A DNA stretch of 64,000 nt from Synergistaceae bacterium (lineage in GTDB: Bacteria > Synergistota > Synergistia > Synergistales > Synergistaceae). Positions 50,386 through 58,174 of this stretch are shown here, piece by piece. The notes beneath the pieces were generated by a model. That model did not search any database, was not told the origin of the DNA, and was given only the letters and a program-made list of their open reading frames with translations. The position numbers were made by a program, and so were the translations under genes. The stretch lies in assembly GCA_030523725.1 (NCBI GenBank), contig JAUNHV010000002.1:124001-188000 (forward strand), given 5' to 3'. Position 1 is the stretch's first letter, and every line of letters begins with the position of its first letter.

Positions 50386-50420
50386 TCTCTTGATTTTATC
50401 ACTAGTTGAGAATTATTAAA

Positions 50421-51977
50421 ATGAATGTTAAAGAATCCACTATTGAATTAACAAAAAAATATGGTTGGAATCTGCTTTCTGATCCTGATAGATTGTCTCA
50501 GATGCTCGAATTTGAGTGTGAGGATCATGAACGTGAGATATTTTGTGTTACGCTAGTTGTGCGTTATCTTCTACAGAAGATTCGTCGTATCTCCCCTAAT
50601 GTACCCTACGTGACAGAAGACGACAAAGAACGATTGATTCGTATTTTTTATCTTTCTGACGAGGATGCTAACAATGCTATTGACATAGTTAATTCTGCCG
50701 TTGCTGTAACTTGTGACGATGGAGTTACATGGTTTGCTGAACCTGGCAGATTACGCAATGTGCACTCCGTTACTCCTAAAAATAATACAAATCCCGTGAA
50801 AAACAGTGTAAAAAGTATTTTTATAATTGTCCTTTTATTTATTGCTCTAGGACTGATAGTGTATCATGCTGAAAGTTTGAAAAAACCTAGAAATGGAGAG
50901 TTAACAGTGGCATTTATGTTGCCCCTTTCCCATAAGGAAAGTAACTCTTCTTATCTCTTGTTAAAATCAGCTCAAATGGCAGCTGAAAAAATAAATCTAC
51001 AATTAAAGTTCCAAGGTGGCTATCGTTTGAAGCTCTTAGGAGTTAATCTACCAACAAAAGACGAAGAGAATATTGCACAAACGAAAAGAATTTTGAAAAA
51101 ATCATCTGCTGCTGCAATCGTCTCTATTGGTGGTGCTGCTTCTGAACGTATTTCAAAAATTGCCAATGAACTTGAAATACCCATATTTTTCACGGGAAGG
51201 TATTTGCCAAGGAAAGAAGCCTTAAAATTCGGTTCAATTCTAGCTCCCTATACCTTTATGCTCTCAAACAACGCTGAGTCAAAAGGAAAAGCTCTTGCAT
51301 ATTTTGCCACTCATGGTTTAAGAAAACGTCGTATAGGTATTGTAACAGACTTAGATGACCAATCTGCACTAGAAATAGAACGTAGTACTAAAAAATGGGT
51401 CAGGTCATTTGGTGCTCGTGTGGTTTGTAAGTCTTATCTAAATGCAAGTGAGACAAACATGGATGCTATCGTTGAAAAATTACAAGCATCTAAACCGAGC
51501 GTTATAATCATTCTTGGACAAGATACAAGGTATAGAATGGCAAACTTTATCCGTACATCAAGCAATATGAAATCTTCTATTGTTGCGCTTGATTATGATA
51601 ATATCCAAGCGAAAGGAATGAATTTAGTTGATTCATGGTGGCTAAATGAGGTGACTGATTTGGATGTTGCTTCCGTTTCCTTTGTGTCGGAATTTGAATC
51701 AAAGTATGGCAAAAACGTCACACCTGTTAACATAACTGATTCCATTATGGCGTATGATTCCATTTTGTTTATTTCGCAAATGTTTGAAAGAGCAACAAGT
51801 TTTCGTGGCGAGTCTTTAAGACATACCATTATGTCCATGGAATATATTCCTTTGTTATCGGGTGTCGTTACTATGAACCAAAGGACACATGCACCACTTG
51901 ACAATTCATATTCGCTTATAAGGATAGAGCAGTCAGTCCCAGTTTTTCAGAGAAAACTAAAACTAACAACGAGATAA
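50421..51977 (+). CDS. Membrane-anchored type I periplasmic-binding-protein-like protein with cytoplasmic domain
   Basis: Function unknown. The 518 residues split into three parts. First is a cytoplasmic region (about 1-125) that begins like the small 'YGwxLLSDPxRL' domain seen at the start of various bacterial proteins. Next is one membrane helix (about 132-149; FIIVLLFIALGLIVY). Last is an extracytoplasmic domain (about 160-518) with the LivJ/Peripla_BP_6-like pattern: VAFMLPLS, AAEKINLQL, AIVSIGGAASE, then IGIVTDLDD near 300. No lipobox or transporter gene is present. The join of an inner domain to an outer sensor suggests signal or substrate sensing. It is 24 bp before the synthetase gene with no terminator. 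Confidence 0.7.
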   Translation: MNVKESTIELTKKYGWNLLSDPDRLSQMLEFECEDHEREIFCVTLVVRYLLQKIRRISPNVPYVTEDDKERLIRIFYLSDEDANNAIDIVNSAVAVTCDDGVTWFAEPGRLRNVHSVTPKNNTNPVKNSVKSIFIIVLLFIALGLIVYHAESLKKPRNGELTVAFMLPLSHKESNSSYLLLKSAQMAAEKINLQLKFQGGYRLKLLGVNLPTKDEENIAQTKRILKKSSAAAIVSIGGAASERISKIANELEIPIFFTGRYLPRKEALKFGSILAPYTFMLSNNAESKGKALAYFATHGLRKRRIGIVTDLDDQSALEIERSTKKWVRSFGARVVCKSYLNASETNMDAIVEKLQASKPSVIIILGQDTRYRMANFIRTSSNMKSSIVALDYDNIQAKGMNLVDSWWLNEVTDLDVASVSFVSEFESKYGKNVTPVNITDSIMAYDSILFISQMFERATSFRGESLRHTIMSMEYIPLLSGVVTMNQRTHAPLDNSYSLIRIEQSVPVFQRKLKLTTR

Positions 51978-52001
51978 AACACCTATAAGGAGCGTAGCGT
52001 G

Positions 52002-55000
52002 ATGACCAATTTAGGAAAATTTTACACCGAAAATCCAAATCTTCGCATTGAAGAGGCTGTAAAAATAGTTTGGAAAGGTGAGGAAGATAAAAGAAATCTG
52101 TGGTGGCAGGGACATTGGATAACACACAATGAACTGTTGCCGCTCATTGCATTCTATAAGGAGAAATTTGCTGCTACAGGTTTTTCCGAGGGGCAAAGGA
52201 TAGCTATCCTTTTGCCGAATTCCCCAACTTTCATTGCAATAATGTTTGCCACGTGGGAACTTGGTGGTGCGATTTGTCCCTTAAATGCGAGAGCCGGTGT
52301 AGCCCAACTTGTTGACACAATTAAAAAACTTGATGTTGCCTTTATAATCACGACTGAAGAAAATGTTGCAAAAGCTGGGGAACTTGCTCAGAGGATACCC
52401 ATAATTCCCGTGCCACTTTTTGGCAAAACGGAAGCAGAATGGCATGCTAGAATTGGGACACAAGAGTCACGTGATATTGCGGTCATTTTTTCAACCAGTG
52501 GTACGTCTGGTTTGCCTAAAGCTGTCCCCTTAACACACAGTAATATTATTGCAAATGGAGTAGGACAAGTATTACATTTTGATGATTTCTTTGTAAATGA
52601 TAATATATTTCTTTTTATATTACCAAATTTCCATACATATGGTCTAAACATAGGCTGCATCATTCCTTTCCTTTATTGTATCCCGACTGTTGTTGTGCCA
52701 AATTTTGTTCCTGTTACTAATACCATAAAAGCACTTCAGGAAAGTGGAGCAAACTTCCTCATTGTAGTCCCGACCATTTTAGCTTTCATAGTAAGTGCTC
52801 TCGAAAAAGCTAATATAAGACTTTCTGGCATAAATTTCATTATTGCTGGTGGTGATAAACTTAATACTGCACTAGATGATAAATGTGCCGAATATCTAGG
52901 TTGCAGAATTGTGGAAGGATATGGTCTTACTGAATGTTCGCCAACAGTTGCAGTAGCGGAAAGCCTGGCTAAGAGAAAATTGGGGACAATAGGCAGAGCC
53001 CTTGCTAACATTGAAATAGAAGTTAGAGATAGGGAGGGGAATAAATTAGATTTGCATGACGAAGGTGTGCTTTGGTTAAAGGGACCTTCCATTGTGAAAT
53101 CATATTTTCGTGATGAAGAAAACACTCGTGAACGTTTTAAGGATGGCTGGTTCAATACTGGAGATGTCGTCCGTATAGACAATGAAGGGTATATATCTGT
53201 GGTTGATAGAGCAACAGATATAATAATAGTTGGTGGTTTCAATGTGTATCCCCAAGAGGTGGAAGCTGTTTTGTCGCAGCACCCCGCTGTGGCACAAGCA
53301 GTGTGTGTAGGGGAGAAAAATTCTGTAACTGGTGAAATTGTTAAGGCTTTTATAATACTTAAGCCTAATGCTACTGTAACAGCAAAAGAACTCGTGAAAT
53401 TTTCTAAGGAACACCTTTCACACTATAAAGTTCCACGCAAAATTGGTTTTGTTGAAAGTTTTCCTCTTTCTCCTGCTGGAAAGATTTTGCGCCGTGAGCT
53501 TCGAAAAATTGATATTCGCAAATTAGAGCAATCACAAGAGAATACACCATCGACTGAAAATCGTGATATGAGAACCTTCTATAAAAATCACTTGGATATG
53601 AGGATTGAAGAAGCGGTTTCACTCATCTGGAGAGAAAGATTGGGTTCGAAATGCTTGTGGTGGGAAGGTGACTGGATAACAGCAGCAACCTTTGCTGACT
53701 TGGTTACCTCTTACAGGGATTATTTGAAGGATGCTGGCTTCAAGGATGGAAATAGATGTATTGCCCTCCTTCCAAACTGTCCTTCAATGGCAGCAATAGC
53801 TTTGGCTACATGGCTACTAGGAGGGACAATTTGTCCACAAAACGCTAGAGCAGGTAACATCCAACTATCTAACATAATACAAAGTTTAGATGCTTCCTGT
53901 GTTTTTACGATAGAAGAAAATATGTCACGTGCAGATATAATTTCGTCCGGTGTTCCGATTGTTCCCGTTCCACTTTTTGGTTTGCCAAAGGCACAGATAA
54001 CTGTCAGACAAGGAACGCCTGGTTCACGTGATACTGCTGTTATCTTTTCTACAAGCGGGTCCTCTGGGCTACCAAAATTTGTTCCTCTTACCCATAAAAA
54101 TATTATCTGTGACTGTTGTGGTCCAGCAGAGCGAATAAATGGATTCATCAATGACCAAATTATTTTCCTTTGGATTTTGCCGAATTTTCACACATTTGGA
54201 CTTAACGTTGGTTTGCTACTACCGCTTCTGTATGGTTATCCAACTGTGGCTATCCAGAAGTTTATCCCAGTAGAAAAAACAATTGCTCAATTAGAAGCAA
54301 GCGGAGCGAATTTCTATATCATTGTTCCTACAATGCTTTCCTTCCTGCTCGCAACCTTGGAAAAGAAAAAAAAGAAGTTGGATAACATCCTCTATGTGAT
54401 TTCTGGCGGTGATAAACTGGACATTGAAATGGAGAAAAAAAGTAAGGAATATCTTGGTTGTGAAATCCTTGAAGGTTATGGGCTAACCGAATGTTCTCCA
54501 ATTGTGTCAGTAGGTGGCGATGGAAACAAAAAACGCCTTGGTACTGTTGGTCAACCATTCTCATTTTTAGAGCTCTCTATAAGAGACAAGGATGGGAATG
54601 AGCTGGAACTACATGAAGAGGGGGCTCTTTGGTTACGTGGTGAGTCAGTGACAAAATCATATTTTCGCGATGAAGAAAGTACACGGGAGCGTTTTAAGGA
54701 TGGCTGGTTCAACACTGGGGATATTGTTCGCATAGACAAGGATGGATTTATTACAATTGTTGATCGTGCGACAGATATAATCATCGTTGGAGGATTCAAT
54801 GTTTATCCTCAAGAAGTTGAAGCTGTCTTAATGCAACATCCTGATATTGCTTCTGCCGTGTGCATAGGAGAGAAAAATACAATTACGGGTGAGATTGTGA
54901 AAGCCTTTGTAATATTGAAGCCAGGGGCTAAGGTAACAGAAAATGACATTATTCGCTTTGCCAAAGCACAACTTTCACATTATAAGACACCAAGAAAAGT

Positions 55001-55070
55001 TATATTTTTAGATAGTTTTCCACTCTCACCAGCTGGCAAGGTATTTCGCAGAGCGTTAAAAAATATATAA
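52002..55070 (+). CDS. Tandem (two-module) acyl-CoA synthetase-like protein
   Basis: Two complete AMP-forming acyl-CoA synthetase modules in one chain of 1022 residues. Module 1 (about 1-505) has the adenylate loop STSGTSGLPK at 164-173, EGYGLTE near 305, GWFNTGD near 382, and the catalytic lysine of SPAGK at 494. Module 2 (about 520-1022) repeats each: STSGSSGLPK at 683-692, EGYGLTE, GWFNTGD and SPAGK at Lys1013. A linker rich in Gln, Glu, Thr and Ser joins them (about 507-522). Both look active and are similar along their length, with the same WW-G-WIT start, so this is an internal duplication. ATG 52002 follows AAGGAG. Confidence 0.88.
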   Translation: MTNLGKFYTENPNLRIEEAVKIVWKGEEDKRNLWWQGHWITHNELLPLIAFYKEKFAATGFSEGQRIAILLPNSPTFIAIMFATWELGGAICPLNARAGVAQLVDTIKKLDVAFIITTEENVAKAGELAQRIPIIPVPLFGKTEAEWHARIGTQESRDIAVIFSTSGTSGLPKAVPLTHSNIIANGVGQVLHFDDFFVNDNIFLFILPNFHTYGLNIGCIIPFLYCIPTVVVPNFVPVTNTIKALQESGANFLIVVPTILAFIVSALEKANIRLSGINFIIAGGDKLNTALDDKCAEYLGCRIVEGYGLTECSPTVAVAESLAKRKLGTIGRALANIEIEVRDREGNKLDLHDEGVLWLKGPSIVKSYFRDEENTRERFKDGWFNTGDVVRIDNEGYISVVDRATDIIIVGGFNVYPQEVEAVLSQHPAVAQAVCVGEKNSVTGEIVKAFIILKPNATVTAKELVKFSKEHLSHYKVPRKIGFVESFPLSPAGKILRRELRKIDIRKLEQSQENTPSTENRDMRTFYKNHLDMRIEEAVSLIWRERLGSKCLWWEGDWITAATFADLVTSYRDYLKDAGFKDGNRCIALLPNCPSMAAIALATWLLGGTICPQNARAGNIQLSNIIQSLDASCVFTIEENMSRADIISSGVPIVPVPLFGLPKAQITVRQGTPGSRDTAVIFSTSGSSGLPKFVPLTHKNIICDCCGPAERINGFINDQIIFLWILPNFHTFGLNVGLLLPLLYGYPTVAIQKFIPVEKTIAQLEASGANFYIIVPTMLSFLLATLEKKKKKLDNILYVISGGDKLDIEMEKKSKEYLGCEILEGYGLTECSPIVSVGGDGNKKRLGTVGQPFSFLELSIRDKDGNELELHEEGALWLRGESVTKSYFRDEESTRERFKDGWFNTGDIVRIDKDGFITIVDRATDIIIVGGFNVYPQEVEAVLMQHPDIASAVCIGEKNTITGEIVKAFVILKPGAKVTENDIIRFAKAQLSHYKTPRKVIFLDSFPLSPAGKVFRRALKNI

Positions 55071-55078
55071 TTTCATAC

Positions 55079-55116
55079 AAAAAGCGTGTATATGACGAAT
55101 CATATACACGCTTTTT
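55079..55116. terminator. Bidirectional terminator between the synthetase and glnN
   Basis: A 17-bp stem AAAAAGCGTGTATATGA / TCATATACACGCTTTTT with loop CGAA between convergent genes. Confidence 0.93.
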
Positions 55117-57414: not shown

Positions 57415-57439
57415 ATTCTGATGACGGGAGGTGGAGATA

Positions 57440-58174
57440 ATGTTATCACATAAGGATGTAGATCAAGCAAAACAAATTGCGGAGTTTTTGGCTAAGGGAG
57501 ATTGTGTTATTTTTTCTGGTGCAGGGTTGTCAACTGAATCTGGTTTAGCAGATTTTCGTTCAAAGAATGGTCTGTGGAAAAAACATGATCCTAGTAGATA
57601 CTGTTCAGTAAATTGCCTAGAGTATAATTATGATGAATTTCTCGAGTTTTATAAAGCACGCCTCATGGTGCCAGAGAATGTAAAACCAAACATTGGACAT
57701 CAGTTAATAGCAAAATGGGAGGCAAAAAAGCTGGTAAATGGTGTAATAACGCAAAATATTGATGGACTACATCAAGCTGCAGGAAGTAAAATTATTGCTG
57801 AATTGCACGGAGGTCTTGAGCCAATTTTTTGTCATAGATGTGGAACAAATGATACTGTCCAAAATTTTATAAATGGCATACCGTGCAAAAAATGTGGTGG
57901 ACACCTCAGAACCTCAATTGTACTTTTTGGGGAATCGTTACCTCAGAAAGATTTTACTCTAGCAGGAAAGCTAACTGAACATGCAAGGACCATGATAGTA
58001 GTTGGTTCTTCCCTTACTGTTAGCCCTGCCAACATGTTTCCCCAAATGGTAAAAAACAAAGGTGCTACGTTGATTATTATTAATAGGGATGAAACTGCAC
58101 TGGATTATTTAGCCGACATAGTGATACACTCAAGTATAGGAGAAACACTTTCTGCTATTAACAACTTTTTATAG
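57440..58174 (+). CDS. NAD-dependent protein deacetylase (sirtuin)
   Basis: Removes acyl groups from lysine using NAD. The 244 residues show SGAGLSTESGLADFRS near 28, TQNIDGLHQAAG near 103, the catalytic His in ELHGGLEP near 123, four zinc cysteines (CHRC and CKKC) and VGSSLTVSPANMFP near 193. The GAGLST and ADFRS residues fit a Sir2-class bacterial sirtuin. ATG 57440 rather than GTG 57431 follows from the ribosome-binding site, which includes the upstream start. In view of the acyl-CoA synthetase genes nearby, a link to acyl-lysine control is possible but not shown. Confidence 0.93.
   Translation: MLSHKDVDQAKQIAEFLAKGDCVIFSGAGLSTESGLADFRSKNGLWKKHDPSRYCSVNCLEYNYDEFLEFYKARLMVPENVKPNIGHQLIAKWEAKKLVNGVITQNIDGLHQAAGSKIIAELHGGLEPIFCHRCGTNDTVQNFINGIPCKKCGGHLRTSIVLFGESLPQKDFTLAGKLTEHARTMIVVGSSLTVSPANMFPQMVKNKGATLIIINRDETALDYLADIVIHSSIGETLSAINNFL

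Follow-up and report, generated by a model that had tools for sequence, protein, structure and literature searches.

A binding protein–synthetase operon of Synergistota in which two acyl-CoA synthetase units are fused in one chain

The window, a stretch of 64,000 nucleotides from the genome of a Synergistaceae bacterium whose relatives likewise place it in Synergistota, carries a gene in which two ANL acyl-CoA synthetase units are joined in a single open reading frame. It follows a gene for a LivJ-like binding protein, with which it makes up a two-gene operon that is conserved among Synergistota relatives. The features of the locus are as follows.

50406..51977, forward strand: gene for the LivJ-like binding protein, upstream in the operon, ending 21 nt before the synthetase gene
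51987..51992, forward strand: ribosome-binding site AAGGAG, 9 nt ahead of ATG 52002, read directly from the sequence
51999..55070, forward strand: fused double acyl-CoA synthetase gene, starting at GTG 51999 or ATG 52002, 1022–1023 amino acids
52002..53507, forward strand: N-terminal synthetase unit, residues 1–502, with Pfam AMP-binding at 26–369 and AMP-binding_C at 419–494
52488..52523, forward strand: A3 phosphate loop of the N unit, FSTSGTSGLPKA, residues 163–174
53481..53483, forward strand: A10 catalytic lysine of the N unit, K494
53508..53567, forward strand: polar linker RRELRKIDIRKLEQSQENTPSTENRDM, without stop codon and without ribosome-binding site
53568..55067, forward strand: C-terminal synthetase unit, residues 523–1022, the faster-evolving half, 56% identical to the N unit
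54045..54080, forward strand: A3 loop of the C unit, FSTSGSSGLPKF, residues 682–693
55038..55040, forward strand: A10 catalytic lysine of the C unit, K1013
55079..55116, forward strand: hairpin resembling an intrinsic terminator, 17 pairs and a T-run, closing the operon just past the stop

The frame of the fused gene, read directly, has no internal stop and ends with the stop codon at 55068–55070, and the gene lies in the interior of a 192-kb contig. A Shine-Dalgarno-like sequence stands ahead of the first start alone and is lacking before the internal ATG at 53568. Within the linker, residues 510–521 have a pLDDT below 50 in the AlphaFold2 model of the fused chain. Terminator-like hairpins number 1 against 3.1 expected in shuffled sequences, and the terminator is argued from its place directly after the stop and not from this count. 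The sequence-only reading had described two synthetase units fused in one protein, and this is confirmed: one open frame holds two stretches each of AMP-binding and AMP-binding_C (403.9 and 133.2 bits over the whole protein, above the gathering score), and the fusion is real and forms one chain. That an error of assembly or sequencing merged two genes is extremely improbable; the genus of the window is represented by one genome, which leaves some room for such an error, but the 192-kb contig, the absence of a stop and of an internal ribosome-binding site, a DNA identity of just 60% between the halves, and the identical architecture of two separately assembled genomes from another genus all argue against it.

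When the halves (52002–53567 and 53568–55067) are compared, 497 residues align without a gap at 56% identity and 591 bits, far beyond chance. Each half keeps the ANL motifs from A3 to A10 (the A3 loop, A5, the A7 aspartate, the A8 hinge and the A10 lysine), and the two have in common STSG(T/S)SGLPK, EGYGLTECSP, GWFNTGD and VDRATDIIIVGGFNVYPQEVE. The common entry sequence reported earlier is present (LWWQGHWIT in the N half and LWWEGDWIT in the C half), the catalytic lysines lie exactly at the reported residues 494 and 1013, and the adenylate loop, GWFNTGD and lysine each occur twice, so that both units are intact by motif, as had been proposed, and on this ground both would be competent enzymes. 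Likewise, the proposed absence of a carrier or acyltransferase between the units is upheld by a Pfam search of the fused protein, which detects neither a carrier nor a condensation or acyltransferase domain. This sets the protein apart from Aas and from the dimodular nonribosomal peptide synthetases (for example LgrA), which likewise string two or more ANL-containing modules into one chain but in addition possess carrier and condensation domains. When the complete fused chain is compared by Foldseek, peptide synthetases of the LgrA type rank first, with TM-scores of 0.2–0.4 that reflect the shared ANL fold only. Elsewhere in the window genome (G000, contigs C6 and C13, loci L005–L015) lie several large frames of up to 2982 amino acids with distant adenylation domains; small as the genome is, these frames probably encode peptide synthetases.

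By length and by motif content, each half is a complete member of the ANL acyl- and aryl-CoA synthetases (PF00501 plus PF13193; FadD-like PRK06187, MenE, 4CL and the feruloyl-CoA synthetase 8WEU), from which the fused protein differs in having two units per chain. None of the best 25 NCBIfam models listed reaches its cut-off, and the N half falls short of FadD, MenE, 4CL or MatB identity (314/766, 276/556 and 258/330 bits with the best equivalogs). In the PDB, single units match CoA ligases of the MenE/4CL/oxalyl-CoA type, and the solved relatives of the halves include aryl, succinylbenzoate and fatty acid CoA ligases. The hallmark of the FAALs is a specific insertion in the N-terminal domain (PMC8460268); the fused protein shows no long insertion when aligned to the CoA ligase 8WEU, the sole reference, which would speak for a CoA ligase.

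The sequence-only reading attributed the two units to an internal duplication, and phylogeny agrees. The halves are sisters in the full tree (100/100), in the AMP-binding domain alone and in the C-terminal third (94/98), and the duplication is thus private to this protein. The identical residues of the two halves use the same codon at 122 of 280 positions, where 115 are expected by chance; silent sites are therefore randomised between the halves and the duplication is old, which rules out a recent duplication or one introduced by assembly. Local gene conversion was considered for the conserved stretch at 360–440 and rejected, as each half resembles unfused relatives there almost as closely as the halves resemble each other. 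The halves have diverged unequally, with branch lengths of 0.29 (N) and 0.73 (C); the C half, evolving at about 2.5 times the rate of the N half, alters several positions (A174F, T168S, N205W, E499A) that are otherwise nearly fixed in P1, as we call the synthetase group that is paired with the binding-protein gene and includes the fused protein.

The substrate pockets, which the earlier reading had singled out for comparison, differ at few sites (NFHTYG/NFHTFG, NFIIAGG/LYVISGG, CSPTVAV/CSPIVSV) in segments that were placed by motif and are expected to line the pocket in the ANL fold. Together with the fact that nearly all conserved positions are common to the halves, this invites the alternative that both catalyse the same reaction and that the fusion fixes a 1:1 dimer or doubles the activity behind the receptor. 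Several aryl-CoA ligases are indeed homodimers (PMC8388817), but others are monomeric, the halves evolve at different rates and differ in 44% of their residues, and the AlphaFold2 model, in which two ANL units are folded, one per half, has no confident interface between them (pTM 0.53). We regard a built-in dimer or a dosage effect as fairly unlikely.

The product of the upstream gene has a class I periplasmic-binding fold, confirmed by Pfam (Peripla_BP_6, 1.8e-21) and by structure comparison. It is laid out as a helical domain (about residues 1–103), one transmembrane helix (134–159) and a LivJ-like domain (165–523), and its AlphaFold model has a pLDDT of 75. The best fold matches in the PDB are LivJ, LIVBP and aromatic-acid-binding proteins, and the ligands of these fold relatives include branched-chain amino acids, aromatic acids, urea and other small ligands. 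The N-terminal helical domain, which is without a Pfam match, is conserved among aligned orthologues (YG..ILEDPDRLSQFLE). The solute-binding proteins of ABC transporters share the same fold; however, they are typically free or lipid-anchored and accompanied by permease and ATPase genes, whereas the upstream protein has neither trait and carries a helical domain and one membrane helix ahead of its binding domain. Among the genes that recur around the synthetase loci, none was recognised as coding for a permease or an ATPase. The order of binding protein followed by synthetase is found in 18 compared loci, and the pair is present across all examined genera of the same GTDB family that have P1; the remaining neighbours vary (glgB, malQ, an FAD oxidase, DUF1850). 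This conserved operon suggests that the binding protein and the synthetase are functionally coupled.

It is informative to examine the fusion in light of the copy states of the synthetase across Synergistota. Most genera have P1 as a single gene; it is tandem in two (G003, G008, G023) and fused in two, namely that of the window and a second genus represented by two separately assembled genomes, G005 and G024 (Synergistaceae MAG S33M_St_37, locus L045). Thus the sequence-only reading was correct that a single domain of about 500 residues is the norm in this family; nonetheless, the search that it proposed for the same fusion finds it in one other genus, and tandem pairs are common in the phylum, so the window fusion is not a one-off. 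Of 101 loci taken for a census from a search of 188 genomes of the phylum, 48 are tandem, 41 single, 3 fused and 9 unresolved; some of the single loci lie near contig ends, and in at least some of the unresolved ones the gene gave way to a longer antisense frame during frame picking. Tandem pairs in another Synergistota family mostly overlap by 1 or 4 bases and are translationally coupled, and six pairs share one frame, the second gene beginning 0 to 75 bases after the stop of the first. Given such coupled or one-stop pairs, fusion is a small step away. These pairs are widespread in that family (L079–L165; for example L089:6042-9104, with TAG ATG). Like the fused gene, pairs such as L047 and L089 consist of adjacent synthetases on the same strand, sometimes in the same frame and one stop apart, but they encode two proteins, are paralogues of another clade (gu/gd) and have no upstream binding-protein gene. 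Frame lengths had suggested further fusions in G136, G097, G154, G135 and G133; all are same-frame tandem genes with a stop between them (TAG ATG at the G135 junction, TAA ATG at that of G133). G168 and the group of G003, G008 and G023 have additional tandem duplications of their own. A true single-frame fusion occurs in only two genera of the Synergistota census, and the statement of rarity applies to this phylum, as the search outside it used subfamily-specific patterns only.

The fusion of G005 and G024 has the same architecture and the same upstream binding-protein gene as that of the window, but it differs in its duplication history, in the half that has diverged and in its shorter junction. 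Its N half has a long branch (0.72) and its C half a short one (0.29–0.30), the opposite of the window protein. Likewise, the junction from RRELRK to R(I/L)E measures about 32 residues in one fusion and 17 in the other. Trees in which the N halves of both genera form one clade are rejected (p-AU 4.4e-6), as are those in which the C halves do (p-AU 1.0e-4), and both rejections hold when the AMP-binding domain and the C-terminal third are analysed apart. This implies either separate duplications or complete overwriting by conversion in one lineage. The two fusions were apparently formed by separate duplications, unless conversion overwrote an older shared one. Such a history, in which one ancestral fusion was common to both genera and later gene conversion mimicked a private duplicate in the window genome, is rather unlikely. 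All six fused halves group together (93/90, not starred), and a sister relation of the two genera is not rejected by RpoB (p-AU 0.51) and is borderline in the binding-protein tree (p-AU 0.063), a test weakened by long branches; against it, the junctions differ in length and both tested parts of the protein group alike, such that conversion would have needed to cover the whole unit. The RpoB of the window genome (L219, G000:C8:87407-90862) has a branch of 1.07 against a median of 0.075. The window has 38.7% G+C compared with about 41–61% in sampled relatives, and belongs to a fast-evolving lineage of 1.55 Mb.

The fast divergence of one half might also indicate that it is turning into a regulatory or structural pseudo-enzyme that tunes its partner, and the changes at nearly fixed P1 positions in the window's C half would fit this. 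We consider it very unlikely, because the catalytic motifs and lysine are intact in both halves of both fusions and purifying selection acts strongly on each half of the G005/G024 protein (dN/dS 0.056 and 0.067).

The unfused genomes of the family possess a second, unlinked synthetase, P2, which is present in 20 of 20 genomes checked and absent from all three fused genomes, whose completeness is 100, 100 and 93%. P2 commonly lies in an operon of the order M20 amidohydrolase, P2, citC, citX (L166–L185; for example L166:2504-6746), an acyl-CoA synthetase being an unusual companion for genes of citrate-lyase activation. In the window genome (L222:5891-8635, G000:C9), comEB and the M20 hydrolase adjoin with two tRNA genes between them, and no remnants of P2, citC or citX were found there, these genes having gone without trace. 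citC is also absent from G002, G003 and G023, all of which keep P2, and the tandem genera g4 and g9 retain P2. The idea that the C half is a relocated P2 is excluded, because both fused halves fall in the P1 clade. The absence of P2 fits a fused second half that stands in for it, a fit that rests on two genera. If these are independent, the association of fusion with P2 loss would arise by chance 1 in 91 times over 14 genera; if they are sisters, it shrinks to one event. In addition, both fused lineages are fast-evolving and have small genomes, so the loss of P2 may be part of a general reduction.

Of the two roles suggested in the sequence-only reading, activation of different acids or a built-in dimer, the former is favoured, as a different or extra specificity, by the lack of P2 in fused genomes and by the unequal divergence between the halves. 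We therefore lean, with somewhat better than even confidence, toward one chain with two working sites, in which one half would have diverged toward another acid and would cover for the lost P2. A P1 gene behind the binding-protein gene would have been duplicated in tandem, and the copies merged into one open frame through a short polar linker. Each half would adenylate a carboxylic acid at its own site, as its motifs predict, and hand it on to CoA through the domain rotation typical of ANL enzymes. One half (N in the window, C in G005/G024) would have stayed near the ancestral enzyme, and the diverged half would take a second acid, whereas the binding protein may sense or present a related acid at the membrane. 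A bolder version of this proposal, which we put forward as speculation and think quite unlikely, is a receptor-coupled, two-headed synthetase: the LivJ-like domain would bind an acid outside, the inner domain would hold the fusion at the membrane, and the heads would activate two different acids on entry, the paired state being repeatedly rebuilt in Synergistota through tandem duplication, coupling and fusion, and the fusion replacing P2 in lineages that lost it.

The ANL fold and chemistry of the fused protein are already known. In the limited library of literature that was searched, we found no description of a fused two-unit synthetase without carrier domains, nor of the apparently repeated origin of such a fusion or of the receptor–synthetase operon, and nothing relevant on tandem acyl-CoA synthetases. 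The occurrence of single, tandem, coupled, one-stop-apart and fused states in one phylum provides a natural test of the fusion of enzyme copies, to which two apparently separate fusions with opposite halves diverged add. Furthermore, because a membrane-anchored binding protein is consistently paired with the synthetase, the sensing or uptake of organic acids may be coupled to their activation in a manner that has yet to be described. A gene for a Sir2-family deacylase lies at 57431–58174 of the window, 2.4 kb downstream of the fused gene; sirtuins reactivate AMP-forming synthetases through deacylation of the A10 lysine.
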